Source: Haloarcula halobia
GTDB taxonomy: Archaea; Halobacteriota; Halobacteria; Halobacteriales; Haloarculaceae
Assembly: GCF_029338255.1 (NCBI RefSeq)
Contig: NZ_CP119787.1
Location: 1,488,001-1,552,000, forward strand
DNA length: 64,000 nucleotides
Reading direction: 5' to 3'
Part shown: positions 42,862 through 49,214 of the stretch, one piece after another
Numbering within the stretch: position 1 is the first letter of the stretch
Layout of the letters: every line of letters starts with the position of its first letter
Translations under genes and position numbers: made by a program
Notes under the pieces: model-generated
Database searches by the model: none
What the model was told of the DNA's origin: nothing
Seen by the model: only the letters and a program-made list of their open reading frames with translations

Positions 42862-43628
42862 TCAGGCCGAGACGGTCGCCTGGTCCGAGACGGTGTTGCC
42901 GGCCTGGTCGGTCACCGCGATGCTGACCCGGTAGTCGACGCCGCCGCCCTTCTCGAATCAGAACTCGTCGGTGTCCGAGGCCGCGGCGATGCCGTCGTAG
43001 GTCCAGGGGTGCTCCGGAGGGGGGTCCCGCTGCTGTCGGCGACTGCAAGCGACACCGAGACGAGGTCGGCGTCGACGTCCGTGACCTCCCAGTTGACCGT
43101 GACCGCCGCGTGTGGGTCCTTCCGGCCGGCCTCGGAGACGTTGCAACGGGTGATGACCGGCGGCGACTCAGTGGTCTCCGTGACCGTGGTGAACGTCGCC
43201 GTGGTCCCGGCGGCCGACTCACCACTCGAGGAGAGTGTCGTCGTGCGGAACTCGTAGTCGATCCCGCTGGACAGTCCGGAGACCGACTGGGAGACGCTCC
43301 CCGCGGCAGTGACCGACTGCGATGCGGTCGTCGACCAGGACCCCCCGACCGGCCGGTACTCGAAGGCGGCGTCCACGGAGTCGGCGCCGCCGAGGTCGGT
43401 GACCGACCCGGTGAGCGTCGCCGACGTCGTCTGGACGTCCGTCGCCCCGTCTGTCGTCACGGCCAGTGAGGACGTCGTCTCCTCCGTCCCGTAGCCGTCC
43501 GCCCCGTAGCCGCCCTCGCCGAACCCGGCCGTGCTGTCGGCGGCGGCGACGTTGCCGACACCGAGCGAGGAGGCTGCGACCGTCCCGAGAGCGCCCGTCA
43601 GTTTCAGTACCGACCGTCTGCTGAACAC
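42862..43628 (-). pseudogene. Broken secreted fibronectin-III-like protein
   Basis: It starts with a Tat signal (SRRSVLKLTGALG... ending NVAAA) and carries a fibronectin-III-like domain (DVQTTSATLTGSVTDLGGAD...FEYRPVGG...SGIDYEFRTTT). Near 43021 the sensible frame shifts: the continuation EHPWTYDGIAAASDTDEF is in the next frame, then a TGA (42958-42960) interrupts before FEKGGGVDYRVSIAVTDQAG and the true end. So a frameshift and a nonsense codon are both needed to restore the protein. It lies beside the TasA-like cluster. Confidence 0.75.
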
Positions 43629-43716: not shown

Positions 43717-44406
43717 TTAAAAAGGAATTCGTACCGAGGACCCATCCCTACTCCAGAGACAGTGATAGTTGCACCCCAGATACGTACGATAGTTACAGAC
43801 CTCGTCTGAATGACGTCTCTCGTGCAAACACTTCACAAACACGGGGCTGGAACTGGATATTATTTTTGGATTGACATTCGATATGCCCGCCGTGGACGAG
43901 GCACGCCCCTTGCCGCCGGCCGTCGTGGTCGTCTCGGCGGATTCCGTCTCGACTATCGACTCGCAGGTGACCGCGACCGACCGCGTCAACTCGACGCCGA
44001 CGTCGGGGCCCGTTCCCTCGACGACGACGTCGACCGACTCCACGGCCGTGCTGTCGCCACACGAGACGTCTGCGATGACGGCGCCGCTCTCGCCGGAGGA
44101 GAGCGTCTCCGGACCGCGCACGCTCGACAGTGTCGGTGGTGTATCCTCGTCCCCGGCGACGCTGACAGAGACCTCGAGGGTCGACCTGAAACGGTTCGTG
44201 ACCGTCGCGAGCGACGCCCGCGTGGTCGTGTTGCCCGGCACAGAGACGGAGTGCTCCTGGACGCCGAGATACGCGGCCTGGTCGTCGCCGATGACGACAT
44301 CGACCCCCCGTTCGGCTATCGTCGCGGTGAAGGCCCCGGTCTGTGCCACGGCGAGGACGAGCGCGAGACCCAGGCCGACAAGTGCGACCTGGCGGCCGGC
44401 GTTCAT
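43717..44406 (-). CDS. DUF1102/TasA-like exported protein, first paralogue
   Basis: A 229-residue protein with an N-terminal hydrophobic helix (ALVGLGLALVLAVAQTGAFTATIAERGV). The TGAFT...GDDQAAYLGV segment aligns with TGAFTFVEAGRGV...GDDSAYLKL and TGAFASVEATR...GDQAAYLGL of the two proteins at 45323 and 46220. The last ~50 residues (from ISNVNPK) are encoded by AT-richer DNA and look unlike the rest, so the end may be altered or read into former intergenic DNA. Start overlaps the upstream DUF7344 gene by 4 bases. Confidence 0.68.
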   Translation of the reverse strand: MNAGRQVALVGLGLALVLAVAQTGAFTATIAERGVDVVIGDDQAAYLGVQEHSVSVPGNTTTRASLATVTNRFRSTLEVSVSVAGDEDTPPTLSSVRGPETLSSGESGAVIADVSCGDSTAVESVDVVVEGTGPDVGVELTRSVAVTCESIVETESAETTTTAGGKGRASSTAGISNVNPKIISSSSPVFVKCLHERRHSDEVCNYRTYLGCNYHCLWSRDGSSVRIPF

Positions 44407-44999
44407 CGGTCGCCCACCTCCGGTGGGTCCGCGGTGGTGCCGAGCCGCAGGCGCGAGACGTTGAAGTACGTGTGGACGGCCGCCGAGACCAGCAGCACGA
44501 CAGCCAGGAAGACGGCCCCGGAGAGGTCGGGAATCGAGCCGAACGGCCCGAGGTCCATCCACGCGCACCCCAGCACGAGCAGTCCCAGCACCGACAGGCC
44601 GAGGTAGTAGAGGCTCCACGGGACGTCGCCACCCGGGACCACGTCGAGATAGACCTCCAGGTCCGCGACGGCGTCGGCGAGTTCGACCGTCTCCCTGTTA
44701 GAGTCGTACGCGACGAACCCGCTCTGGTCCATCTTCGGCAGGTGGTGCTGGTGGAGCGCCGTCTTGACGCGCTTGGTCTCCATCGAGGTGAGTTCAGCGA
44801 CCGGTTTGTCGTTCTCCCAGGCCGCCACGTGCTCGGCCAGCTCCCGCAGGTAGACCTCCCGTCGCTCCCGTTTGAGATAGTGGAAGACGAACCGTCGTCG
44901 CCTGTTGCTCAGGATCTCGAATACCTGGTCTTGCGACGGTGTCTGCTCGTCGTCTGATCCCCCGGTGCGCCTGGATAGCTCTGTCCGTGCCTGGCTCAT
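44403..44999 (-). CDS. DUF7344-type winged-helix membrane regulator, second paralogue
   Basis: A 198-residue paralogue of the protein at 18210: HTH region with DQVFEILSNRRRRFVFHYLKR and KRVKTALHQHHLPKMDQSGFVAYD, then LDVVPGGDVPWSLYYLGL and two membrane helices. It is the first gene of a pair with a TasA-like protein gene (4-base overlap). Start at 44999 (MSQARTELSRR). Likely regulates the surrounding exported-protein genes. Confidence 0.82.
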   Translation of the reverse strand: MSQARTELSRRTGGSDDEQTPSQDQVFEILSNRRRRFVFHYLKRERREVYLRELAEHVAAWENDKPVAELTSMETKRVKTALHQHHLPKMDQSGFVAYDSNRETVELADAVADLEVYLDVVPGGDVPWSLYYLGLSVLGLLVLGCAWMDLGPFGSIPDLSGAVFLAVVLLVSAAVHTYFNVSRLRLGTTADPPEVGDR

Positions 45000-45245
45000 T
45001 CCTCGTCTCCCCCGAACGTCGACGGATATCGACACCTCATTCCGGATTCATTTAGTTAGTAATATTACATTGGATGGTAATCCCGTTGTGATATCTCCAA
45101 GGTAACCCGAATACTGTGGGCAATCGAGATAAGCCCAAGTTACTCACCAGAACAGAGGTATTGCGCATCGAATACGCCGGTTTCTGTCGTGCAACCCCTC
45201 TCTTCGATGTGCCACTCGTGTATACAAAAGAGAGGACGAGTCGTT
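45000..45245. other. Divergent promoter region of the TasA-like cluster
   Basis: No gene seen. AT-rich near 45045-45075 on the side of the DUF7344 gene (promoter) and again at 45219-45230 (TATA of the gene at 45323). Between them there is no coding signal. Confidence 0.5.
45219..45227 (+). promoter_or_regulatory. TATA box of second TasA-like gene
   Basis: TGTATACAA, about 100 bases before the ATG at 45323. Implies a leader of about 75 bases. Confidence 0.5.
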
Positions 45246-45322
45246 GCTTCTCGCGCGCACACCGGTGCAGTCACGCCGTCTGGCACGACTGGCCGCCGGG
45301 TGTGTCCATGGGACATCCAACG
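45246..45322 (+). promoter_or_regulatory. 5' leader of second TasA-like gene
   Basis: CACACC (45258-45263) and GGTGTG (45299-45304) are complementary and 41 bases apart, the latter about 18 bases upstream of the ATG at 45323. The third TasA-like leader has the same layout and spacing, and the pilin leaders have it at ~70 bases. Confidence 0.4.
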
Positions 45323-45847
45323 ATGCAACGACGCAACTTCCTCGTCGGCATGGGTTCGCTGGCCGCCGGTTCGGCGGCGGCAGTGGGTACAGGCGCGTTC
45401 ACCTTCGTTGAGGCCGGCCGTGGCGTCACGGTCCAGACCACCGGCGACGACTCGGCGTATCTCAAACTCGACGGTGACAACGAGTACGTCACAGACAACA
45501 ACGGCGAACTGACGATCGACCTCGGGGGGACCTCGGGCAACGGCAACGGCGGGTCCGCGTTCAACTACGACGCCGCGACGCGCGTACAGGGCGTCGTGAC
45601 GGTGGTGAACCAGGGGCCCAACAGCCTGTCTGTCTCCCTGGAGGGAGACGGTGGAAACGTCTCGGTCGTCGGGGACGTCGATAACGTCGACATGGACTCC
45701 GGGGAAGGCATCTACTTCGCCGTTCGGAGTCCGACGGTCGCCCCCGGCGACGCCGCGTTCATCGACGTCGCTATCGTCGAAGGCCCGGACGGTGACACCG
45801 AGGTCGGCAACGGGGCAGGTGGCACCCTCACGATAGTCACGAATTGA
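45323..45847 (+). CDS. DUF1102/TasA-like exported protein, second paralogue
   Basis: A 174-residue protein. The signal (MQRRNFLVGMGSLAAGSAAAVGTGAFTF) has the GT-x-A-F after the hydrophobic core that marks SipW-processed TasA/camelysin-type signals. The mature part is beta-rich and Asn/Gly/Asp-rich (SGNGNGGSAF), as in fibre subunits. The in-frame ATG at 45308 is possible, but 45323 aligns with the paralogue at 46220. A signal peptidase gene lies 1 kb downstream. Predicted exported filament or coat subunit. Confidence 0.8.
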   Translation: MQRRNFLVGMGSLAAGSAAAVGTGAFTFVEAGRGVTVQTTGDDSAYLKLDGDNEYVTDNNGELTIDLGGTSGNGNGGSAFNYDAATRVQGVVTVVNQGPNSLSVSLEGDGGNVSVVGDVDNVDMDSGEGIYFAVRSPTVAPGDAAFIDVAIVEGPDGDTEVGNGAGGTLTIVTN

Positions 45848-46140
45848 ACAGCCTCGGGCCCTGTCGGTTCGGGGTTTGACGAATTCGGAACTCGGGAGTT
45901 GGTGACTCGATGGGTTAGCTCGGTTTCGATCTGCGGTCCGCACGGCAGCCCCCTTCTGGAAAACGTCTGCGGAGCGTCGTTCCCAGTCGTTCTTGGACGC
46001 TTGGTGTTCGATGGCGAAACTCACCAGGTAAACCTACCTTACACTTTGAAAACACTCACTTCAGCATGCAGAGGCACGTTCTCTGCACACAGGATATCTT
46101 TGCATTGGTGTCACTGTATATACACAAAGGGTGGTGGGAC
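45848..46140. other. Intergenic region between second and third TasA-like genes
   Basis: No gene seen. Contains a 7-bp inverted repeat (TGCAGAG 46067-46073 and CTCTGCA 46081-46087) and the TATA box GTATATACA (46115-46123) of the following gene. Confidence 0.5.
46115..46123 (+). promoter_or_regulatory. TATA box of third TasA-like gene
   Basis: GTATATACA about 100 bases upstream of the ATG at 46220, at the same distance as in the second paralogue. Confidence 0.55.
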
Positions 46141-46219
46141 CATGCAACGAACGAGCACACCCCTGACGGCGTGTCGGTGACGGGATCGGTCGTACGGGTG
46201 TGCGCACGGAGACCAAACA
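46141..46219 (+). promoter_or_regulatory. 5' leader of third TasA-like gene
   Basis: CACACCC (46156-46162) can pair with GGGTGTG (46196-46202), 40 bases apart; the second arm is 17 bases before the ATG. Same layout as 45246-45322 although the sequence between the arms differs. Confidence 0.4.
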
Positions 46220-46801
46220 ATGCAACGACGCAAATTCCTCGTCGGAATGGGATCGCTCGCCGCCGGCTCGGCGGCTGCAATGGGTACTGGTGCGTTTGCT
46301 AGTGTGGAGGCTACTCGTACCGTCGGTGTCAATGTGGCAGGTGACCAGGCTGCTTATCTCGGTTTGGAAGCGACGTCACCGTACGCCGAATACAGCGGGA
46401 AACAACTCGTCTTGGACTTCAGTGGCAACAATAACGGTGGCAGCGGTATCAACGCCGACTCGGTTACGACTTTTGATGGCGTTTTTCGGATGACCAATAA
46501 CGGTCCGAACAATCTCGACATCACTATCGATAAATCCGGTTTGGCTAACCCGGATCGATGGCATTTCGTCCCAAAAGAAGTGTACGAAGAGTACAGTGGT
46601 TCCTACCCCGAAGATAGCTTCTACCCGAGCTAGGACGACTTCGGCGGGTACGAGAGTACCAATGCAAGTGGAGGTGGTCTTGACTCGGGTACTTCTACGC
46701 TAGTTGGTGTGGCGATCGACGCGCGGGACATGGCCAGTGTTCCAGGGGGCGAAATTAGATTCGCCGTCACGGATGCGGATGGTCCGTACGGAAGCAGTTA
46801 A
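46220..46801 (+). pseudogene. DUF1102/TasA-like exported protein, third paralogue, interrupted by TAG
   Basis: The reading frame runs from ATG 46220 to TAG at 46631-46633 (137 residues), then continues in frame with DDFGGYESTNASGGG and VGVAIDARDMASVPGGEIRFAVTDADGPYGSS to TAA at 46799-46801, giving 192 amino-acid codons. The signal peptide is nearly identical to that at 45323, and the tail matches the expected C-terminal strand region. One base change (for example CAG or TGG to TAG) explains it. Likely a recent nonsense mutation or a sequence error; readthrough is less likely. Confidence 0.7.
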
Positions 46802-46852
46802 TTTGAAACAGCTTCGTAACTAAACTCTTGCAGTAATATTTTTTGTCCTGAC

Positions 46853-48016
46853 ATGGGACTGAAGAAGGCGGGGATTGTAATTCCACAACTTGCAATCCTT
46901 CTCATCGTGCTATTATTGGTTCTCGGATCAGTCCTCGGCCAACCAACCCTTCTCGGCTTCGTGACCTCTGGCAGCATGGAACCGACTCTTGACGAGGGCG
47001 ACGGCTTCTTCGCAATCCCGGCGGCTATCACCGACGGCCCGGGAGCGGGTGACGTCGTCGTCTTCCGTGCCGAGGAGATACAGGGCGGCGGCCTGACCAC
47101 CCACCGAATCGTCGAGGAAACCGACCGAGGCTACATCACGAAAGGCGACGCCAATCCGTTCACAGACCAGGACAGTGGTGAGCCACCGGTAAAATCAGAG
47201 CAGATCGTCGCCGTCGCCTGGCAACCCGGTGGCGAGGTGCTAGCGATACCCGGCGTCGGGAGCGTCGTCACCGGCACCCAGCGCGTCCTGCAGACAGTCC
47301 AGAGCACGCTCGCCTCGGCACTCGGCACCCGTTCCTTGCTCGGCGTCCAGGGACTCGCGTACCTCGTCTTCGCGCTCTCGCTCCTGTTCTACGGGATCGA
47401 CGTGTGGCGGGACAGCGGCCGGGAACGGACCTCGCGCGACCGGTCACGGGACACCGGCACCAGCGCACGGCTCGTCGTCGGCGTGCTCGCCGCCGTCGTC
47501 GTCGTGAGCGCCACCGCGGCGATGGTCGGGCCCGCGGGCCCACAGGAGTTCGGCGTCGTCAGCGCCGAGAGCGACTCGCCGGGGCCGCGCGTCATCGAGA
47601 AGGGGACCACCGAATCGACCACCTATCCCGTCGGCAACGGCGGGTTCGTCCCTGCCATCGTCTTCCTCGAACCGGGCGACGAGAACGTCGACGTCCAGCC
47701 GCGCGAACTCACCGTGCCGCGACAGTCGGTGGTCAACGCGACCCTGACGATTCACGCGCCGCCCGAGACGGGCTATTACCGCTACTTCGTCACGCAACAC
47801 CGGTACCTGGCGTTGCTGCCCCAGGCCCACGTCCGGGCGCTGTACGAGGTCCACCCGTGGGCGCCCATCGCCGTCATCGACGCGCTGCTCGGCGTGCCGT
47901 TCTACCTCGTCGGCGTTACGCTGGTCGGGACCGGGCGAGTACGCAGGCGGTCCCGCGACACGGGGCGCTCGACGGCGGCACGCGTCCGGCGTCGGGTGCG
48001 CCGGCTGTATCGCTAA
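46853..48016 (+). CDS. SipW-like signal peptidase I with extra external domain
   Basis: A 387-residue S26 peptidase. The first ~150 residues hold TSGSMEPTL (S41 nucleophile) and THRIVEE (H84), followed by GYITKGDANPFTDQDSG as in ER/archaeal/SipW Ser-His type peptidases, not Ser-Lys. After a helix (residues 160-185) and another (about 205-225) come some 130 residues outside the membrane (RVIEKGTTESTTYPVG ... QHRYLALLPQ), then a final helix and a basic tail. It follows the TasA-like genes directly, so it probably matures them. Confidence 0.85.
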   Translation: MGLKKAGIVIPQLAILLIVLLLVLGSVLGQPTLLGFVTSGSMEPTLDEGDGFFAIPAAITDGPGAGDVVVFRAEEIQGGGLTTHRIVEETDRGYITKGDANPFTDQDSGEPPVKSEQIVAVAWQPGGEVLAIPGVGSVVTGTQRVLQTVQSTLASALGTRSLLGVQGLAYLVFALSLLFYGIDVWRDSGRERTSRDRSRDTGTSARLVVGVLAAVVVVSATAAMVGPAGPQEFGVVSAESDSPGPRVIEKGTTESTTYPVGNGGFVPAIVFLEPGDENVDVQPRELTVPRQSVVNATLTIHAPPETGYYRYFVTQHRYLALLPQAHVRALYEVHPWAPIAVIDALLGVPFYLVGVTLVGTGRVRRRSRDTGRSTAARVRRRVRRLYR

Positions 48017-48077
48017 CCCGAGCCAACCGAAAATATTGATAGTATAACAATAGCGATCCCAGGCGGCCTTGCAGGTC

Positions 48078-49214
48078 ATGGGGGACCGCTGGTTGCAGAC
48101 GCGCGCAGCGCTCGAGTCGTGGTTCGAGGTCGTGGTCGTCGTCTTTCTCGTCCTGGCACTCGTCGGCGGCTGGGTGGCCTACGGGGCGCACGTCGACCCG
48201 GGCACGACCACGGAGGAACGGACCGTCTCGTCGTGGGCGACGACGGGGACCTACACCCACCAGGCGACGGTCACCGAACCGAACCCGGTGTACGACCGCG
48301 GGACGACGCTCGAGAACCGGTCCGTGTATCTGCTGGCCGCGACGCCGGACCTCGACGGGCAGTTCGCCTTCTCGTACAACGCCACCGACGGCGGCAGCCT
48401 CGACGTCGACGTGGAGGAGGCGCTCGTCGTGCGGGCCGTCGACGAACGACAGGAGCGGACGGCAGTGGTCTGGGAGCAGTCCCGGACGCTCGAGACGCGC
48501 ACCGAGTCCGACGTGGCGCCGGGGTCGCGGGTGACAGTCCCGTTCTCGCTGGACGTCAACCGGACGCAGAACCGGACCGAGCAGATTTCGGAGCGACTGG
48601 GGAACCCGCCCGGCGAGCCCCGCGTGCTCGTCGTCACGACGGTCCAGTTCTCGGGGACGGTCAACGGCCAGGCGGTCAACCGGACGGCGGCCTACGCCAT
48701 GCCGATAACGTTCTCGCAGAACGCCTACCGGGTGAACGCCTCGGCAGACACGACCCGCGACGAGACGACGGCCCTCGTCGAGGTGCCCCGTGAACCCGGG
48801 ATGCTCCGGACCGTCGGTGGGCCGCTGCTGTTCGGCGTCGGGTTCCTGGGCCTCGCGGCGCTCACTGTTGCTCGCTCGCGAAACGATTTCGAGTTGAGCC
48901 AGCGCGAACGGGACCTGCTGGCGTACCGGGGTGATAGAGCCGAGTTCGACGAGTGGGTCACGTCGTTCGACCTGCCGCCGGAGGCGCTCGACCTTCCTCG
49001 GGCGGAGGCGACGTCGCTCGCGGACCTCGTGGACTTCGCCATCGACACCGATAACAGCGTCGTCGAGAACCCGGGGAGCGAGACGTTCTACGTCCGGCAC
49101 GACGGCGTGCTGTACACCTACGAAGCACCACCGATGGACGCACCCGAAAACGCGCCGACGGTGGACGGCTCGCCACCGGAGGCCGAGCTGAGCGAAGACG
49201 AGGGCGCACAGTAG
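48078..49214 (+). CDS. DUF5305 domain-containing membrane protein
   Basis: A 378-residue protein: an N-terminal membrane helix (residues 15-37), a large external beta domain with NRTQNRTEQ-type Asn/Thr-rich strands (residues 40-235), a second helix (LLFGVGFLGLAALTVA) and a cytoplasmic tail (residues 260-378) with an acidic end. This fits DUF5305, found beside SipW-like peptidases in archaea. ATG at 48078 preferred over the TTG at 48069. It may anchor or assemble the exported TasA-like proteins; this is inference from context. Confidence 0.8.
   Translation: MGDRWLQTRAALESWFEVVVVVFLVLALVGGWVAYGAHVDPGTTTEERTVSSWATTGTYTHQATVTEPNPVYDRGTTLENRSVYLLAATPDLDGQFAFSYNATDGGSLDVDVEEALVVRAVDERQERTAVVWEQSRTLETRTESDVAPGSRVTVPFSLDVNRTQNRTEQISERLGNPPGEPRVLVVTTVQFSGTVNGQAVNRTAAYAMPITFSQNAYRVNASADTTRDETTALVEVPREPGMLRTVGGPLLFGVGFLGLAALTVARSRNDFELSQRERDLLAYRGDRAEFDEWVTSFDLPPEALDLPRAEATSLADLVDFAIDTDNSVVENPGSETFYVRHDGVLYTYEAPPMDAPENAPTVDGSPPEAELSEDEGAQ

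Follow-up and report, generated by a model that had tools for sequence, protein, structure and literature searches.

The gene island studied here raises the question of whether a set of exported haloarchaeal proteins, encoded beside a Ser-His signal peptidase, builds a surface fibre and, if so, whether that fibre belongs with the TasA/SipW system of Bacillus, as a first-pass annotation had proposed, or with another fibre family. The window, the whole 64 kb stretch of DNA analysed, spans positions 1488001-1552000 of contig C1 in a genome of 3.48 Mb, and the named genome closest to it, that of Halomicroarcula sp. SYNS111 (L034/L095), is syntenic with it at 88-92% DNA identity. Taken together, our results make it likely that the island is a compact variant of the haloarchaeal Tat-fimbria (tafi) locus, Tat-exported and equipped with its own SipW-like peptidase, with one subunit broken. 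What the sequence shows directly is the family membership, the signal motif, the catalytic residues of the peptidase, the order of the genes and the stop codon; the steps by which these parts would form a fibre are put forward more cautiously below.

Table 1. Features of the fibre island, in window coordinates
Feature	Position	Strand	Evidence or remark
P1, TafC-like protein	43717..44406	-	NCBIfam TafC 61.5 bits; hhalign vs subunit family prob. 98.8%
DUF7344 putative winged-helix regulator, C-terminal membrane segments	44403..44999	-	PF24035 E 6.1e-30
P2 promoter-like box (TGTATACA at -104) and putatively folded leader, stem CACACC...GGGTGTG	45213..45322	+	
P2, fibre subunit of the TafE/TafA superfamily with a Tat signal, 174 aa, putative cleavage-site motif GTGAF	45323..45847	+	
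P3 promoter-like box (TGTATATACA at -105) and putatively folded leader, stem GCACACC...GGGTGTGC	46111..46219	+	
P3, second subunit with a Tat signal, TafE/TafA superfamily, DUF1102, 137 aa	46220..46633	+	TAG-ended
Archaeal/ER-type signal peptidase (Ser41, His84), 387 aa, window-type clade	46853..48016	+	TIGR02228 above cut-off
DUF5305 membrane protein, presumed assembly/anchoring partner	48078..49214	+	PF17231 E 3.5e-52

P1, P2, the Ser-His signal peptidase, the DUF5305 protein and the DUF7344 protein were all recovered where the first-pass annotation had placed them, the last three with the family matches that it had named (Table 1). The DUF7344 gene overlaps P1 by 4 bp and is divergent from the subunit genes, and DUF5305 is present as a single copy in this genome. 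Next to the island, a secreted Tat-signal protein (42912-43628, minus strand) matches its SYNS111 counterpart up to residue ~207, past which similarity is lost and the protein ends in an Arg-rich stretch, as if frameshifted. Our searches of viral contigs and plasmids found no relatives and hence no sign of a viral or plasmid source. One candidate locus from Micromonospora (L036) contained no subunit ORF and was discounted as a chance hit.

Subunit signature and family membership

The TGAF motif said to be common to the three exported proteins occurs three times in the six frames of the window, once in each protein. The downstream GD(D/-)xAYLxL block, also described as shared by all three, holds less well for P1, whose version (GDDQAAYLGV) is weaker. 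P2 and P3 are paralogues (48% identity over 110 aa, E 6e-17), and both begin with a twin-arginine signal of the form MQRRxFLVG...GTGAF, a feature missing from the earlier description; among the subunits that we collected, the spacing from the RR pair to the G(T/S)GAF site is almost fixed, at 19 residues in 33 sequences. The dN/dS of P2 and P3 is 0.05, a sign of strong purifying selection. P1 is a more distant member: BLAST relates it to P3 (E 4e-4) and returned no match in a direct comparison with P2, so that profiles were needed to link it, and profile comparison with the subunit family (hhalign) did so at E 4.6e-17. Its N-terminal part (residues 7-149) comprises the TGAF module and a conserved Cys pair and matches the N-terminal half of TafC. 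P1 has no RR in the window, and its SYNS111 counterpart has one. The last ~79 residues of P1 (43717-43956) are encoded by low-GC sequence (0.53) and have no equivalent in the copy from SYNS111, where a Thr/Ser-rich tail closes the protein.

Haloarchaeal Tat-fimbriae ("tafi") were described in 2025, as cited in PMC12687288. Against the NCBIfam equivalog cut-offs for these fimbriae (TafE 155, TafA 190, TafC 410), P2 scores 56.8 bits with TafE, P3 scores 63.5 with TafE and 46 with TafA, and P1 scores 61.5 with TafC, all below threshold; the TafA and TafE models are nonetheless matched by all 34 aligned subunits, and TafA is found above its cut-off in 12 of the 32 genomes of the genus. A profile of the subunits searched against PDB chains gave a single significant match, the "Pilin" 9p0a (three chains), at E 1.1e-30 over 177 of 186 positions, and P2 by itself matched 9p0a at E 1.6e-10. 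Gene order points the same way. At loci where TafA, TafE, TafC and TafF all exceed their cut-offs, a homologous peptidase, DUF7344 and DUF5305 are also found; one of these loci (L090), with TafA, TafE, a TafC bearing a LamG domain, TafF, DUF5305 (PF17231) and the homologous peptidase, even has the 4 bp overlap between DUF7344 and TafC that is seen between DUF7344 and P1 in the window. Throughout the loci examined in the genus, DUF7344, one or more Tat subunits and the peptidase are clustered, with DUF5305 at 18 of 21 and P1-like proteins at most. We found no LamG domain match on P1, no match to TafF, and no TafF-like gene between 43.7 and 49.2 kb of the window.

SipW itself is a peptidase of the archaeal/ER Ser-His type (PMC10269814), and the window peptidase has the corresponding conserved residues, Ser41 in SGSMEPT and His84 in TTHR, together with a match of 38.5 bits to the SipW model, below the cut-off of 190. 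In a peptidase tree, the 13 window-type sequences form one group apart from the 5 tafi sequences (support 100/100), and one genome (G047) has peptidases of both types. At E 1e-25, relatives, tafi peptidases included, occur in 116 of 195 Halobacteriales genomes. The window and tafi peptidases are also alike in extending at the C terminus by an additional ~200 aa, a region with predicted membrane segments and possibly a beta-rich part. A second, distant signal-peptidase-like gene lies elsewhere in the genome (26 bits), consistent with the window peptidase being dedicated.

These parts suggest how the island could work. The P2 and P3 precursors would be exported by the Tat route through their N-terminal RR signals and then cut by the neighbouring Ser-His peptidase, presumably at the invariant (T/S)-G-A/F site between Ala and Phe, and the freed subunits, whose mature N-terminal strand F-x-x-V-x-A-x-R is conserved, may polymerise into a thin surface fibre. 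Donor-strand complementation would be the most likely mode of assembly, by extension from TasA and from archaeal threads and bundling pili (PMC9674648, PMC9715654). Position and family suggest that P1 could be a minor subunit, placed as an adapter or at the fibre end, that the DUF5305 protein could assist assembly or anchoring at the membrane, and that the DUF7344 protein could regulate the divergent subunit genes. With P3 cut short in this strain, P2 and P1 would be left to make up any fibre.

The interrupted subunit gene and the conserved leaders

The first-pass annotation ran the third gene to 46801, but an in-frame TAG at 46631-46633 ends P3 at 137 aa, and the remnant then stays in frame to 46801. 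The TAG stands at the position of a Trp that is invariant in six intact relatives, from SYNS111 and five other genomes (three of the five belonging to two other families of the order), all of which continue beyond it for about 55-70 further conserved residues. Because the 165 bases past the stop have a dN/dS of 0.13, the break is either very recent or a sequencing error. The composition of the gene is also unusual, with GC of 0.55 and GC3 of 0.58 against 0.65-0.70 around it, and it sits in a low-GC stretch (45848-47032; 0.52-0.57 against the same surroundings) that takes in P3 and runs into the beginning of the peptidase gene. Relatives of P3 were found at E 1e-30 in just 6 of the 392 genomes of the order sample, and P3 is 82% identical to copies in two other families; the low GC, patchy occurrence and high identity across families suggest that it has probably been exchanged between lineages.

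Most mRNAs of the haloarchaeal group are regarded as leaderless. A promoter-like box of the form GTATA..CAAA precedes P2, P3 and the relatives of window type at about -103 to -105 from the ATG (in L077 as the variant GCATATACCAAA), and a covariance model of the leader (R1) found further copies, six of which (L104-L109) lie directly before Tat subunit genes of further species and genera, with the motif GTGAF or GSGAF, or GTSAF in L106. Every counted cell of the 7-bp closing stem is paired across 11 aligned leaders, and four of the seven pairs have changed on both sides. The overall covariation score was reached by 0 of 500 shuffles, in an alignment that was itself fitted to the model and with a model that spans start codons. 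G-U intermediates in the stem argue for an RNA and against a DNA operator. Single leaders did not fold better than their shuffles by a clear margin, and no Rfam family matches the leader. On this comparative evidence, we consider the prospects evenly balanced that subunit mRNAs of this tafi variant begin with a conserved, structured 5' leader that would control or protect them. A second type of leader, seen upstream of the first subunit genes at L078-L086, consists of a TCAAAGAG..ACTACAAT box and a GC-rich hairpin directly before the ATG. Since the consensus fold of this second group is weak, we restrict the RNA claim to leaders of the window type and to the matches to R1.

Alternative readings and known systems

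The proposal of a TasA/SipW-like fibre thus stands in part: Taf homology, the match to 9p0a and gene order all favour fibre subunits with a SipW-like peptidase, and the likeness to TasA is one of analogy. A true TasA/camelysin-family system, in which SipW would release jelly-roll subunits homologous to TasA and AbpA that assemble by donor-strand exchange, would fit the T-x-A/(A)F type of site, comparable to the GTWA/AF of TasA, the sub-threshold SipW match of the peptidase, and the report of archaeal fibres structurally related to TasA (PMC9674648). Peptidase_M73 (PF12389), the family of TasA and camelysin, has however no match in the whole genome or among the 34 subunits, the signals are of the Tat and not the Sec type, and the profile search of the PDB retrieved no TasA or AbpA chain. 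A direct profile comparison of the subunits with B. subtilis TasA gave a probability of 1.6% in hhalign, using a TasA sequence checked against PDB 8aur, the chain of which starts AFND. AlphaFold models of P2 and of the peptidase, made from few input sequences, had pLDDT values of about 36 (35.7 for P2), too low for judging the fold. At the level of sequence, homology of the window proteins to TasA or camelysin is unsupported, and we regard a genuine TasA system as rather doubtful.

A different concern is whether the locus still functions. Since P3 is broken and the DUF5305 gene of SYNS111 (L034:8979-10101) is split into two reading frames, the fibre system may be decaying or dispensable. The stronger form of this reading, a degenerating locus that makes no working fibre in this strain, would draw on the P3 TAG at an invariant Trp, the altered P1 tail that is missing from the sister genome, a shortened intergenic stretch, and the two-frame DUF5305 of SYNS111. 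It is unlikely given that P2, the peptidase, DUF5305 and DUF7344 are intact in the window, that P2 is so strongly constrained, and that P3 remains conserved past its stop. Finally, the Tat proteins might be individually secreted or surface-anchored, with the peptidase serving only to mature them, as the location of some members away from the window-type peptidase of their genome (for example L104 from G015, ~0.8 Mb) might suggest; the full-length profile match to 9p0a and the matches to the Taf fimbrial families make this highly improbable. A compact tafi-like locus with one broken subunit gene remains our favoured reading.

That reading places widespread haloarchaeal loci, as gauged by the 116 of 195 genomes with peptidase relatives, beside the few Tat-fimbriae that have been described experimentally, and indicates a fibre repertoire of at least two clades within one genus. 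It also offers a testable rule, that of one peptidase paired with an unvarying cleavage motif in its Tat substrates, and the conserved leader provides a concrete handle for studying how fimbrial expression is controlled.

Among known systems, the window peptidase falls within archaeal signal peptidase I (TIGR02228, 61.8 bits against a family cut-off of 51.85) and differs from it by its extra C-terminal region. TasA/CalY and SipW of Bacillus resemble the island in having a T-x-A/(A)F site beside a Ser-His peptidase, the T-G-A/F of the window subunits recalling T-W-A/A-F in TasA, whereas the Bacillus proteins have a Sec signal, PF12389 and a TapA partner and no detectable sequence homology to those of the window. 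The bundling pili AbpA of Pyrobaculum calidifontis are an archaeal case of a fibre reported to be TasA-like and donor-strand complemented. The 9p0a pilin has a Tat signal and GTGAF motif as in P2, and is a full-length relative and no near-copy. Haloarchaeal Tat-fimbriae, reportedly the subject of work by Galeva et al. in 2025 (iScience 28:111793), share with the window, and in the same genus, Tat-signal subunits with a G(T/S)GAF site, a homologous Ser-His peptidase, a TafC-like gene overlapped by DUF7344, and DUF5305; the window differs in Taf scores that lie far under the equivalog cut-offs and in a peptidase of a separate clade. Of these systems, the Tat-fimbria, already published, is closer to the island than TasA is.
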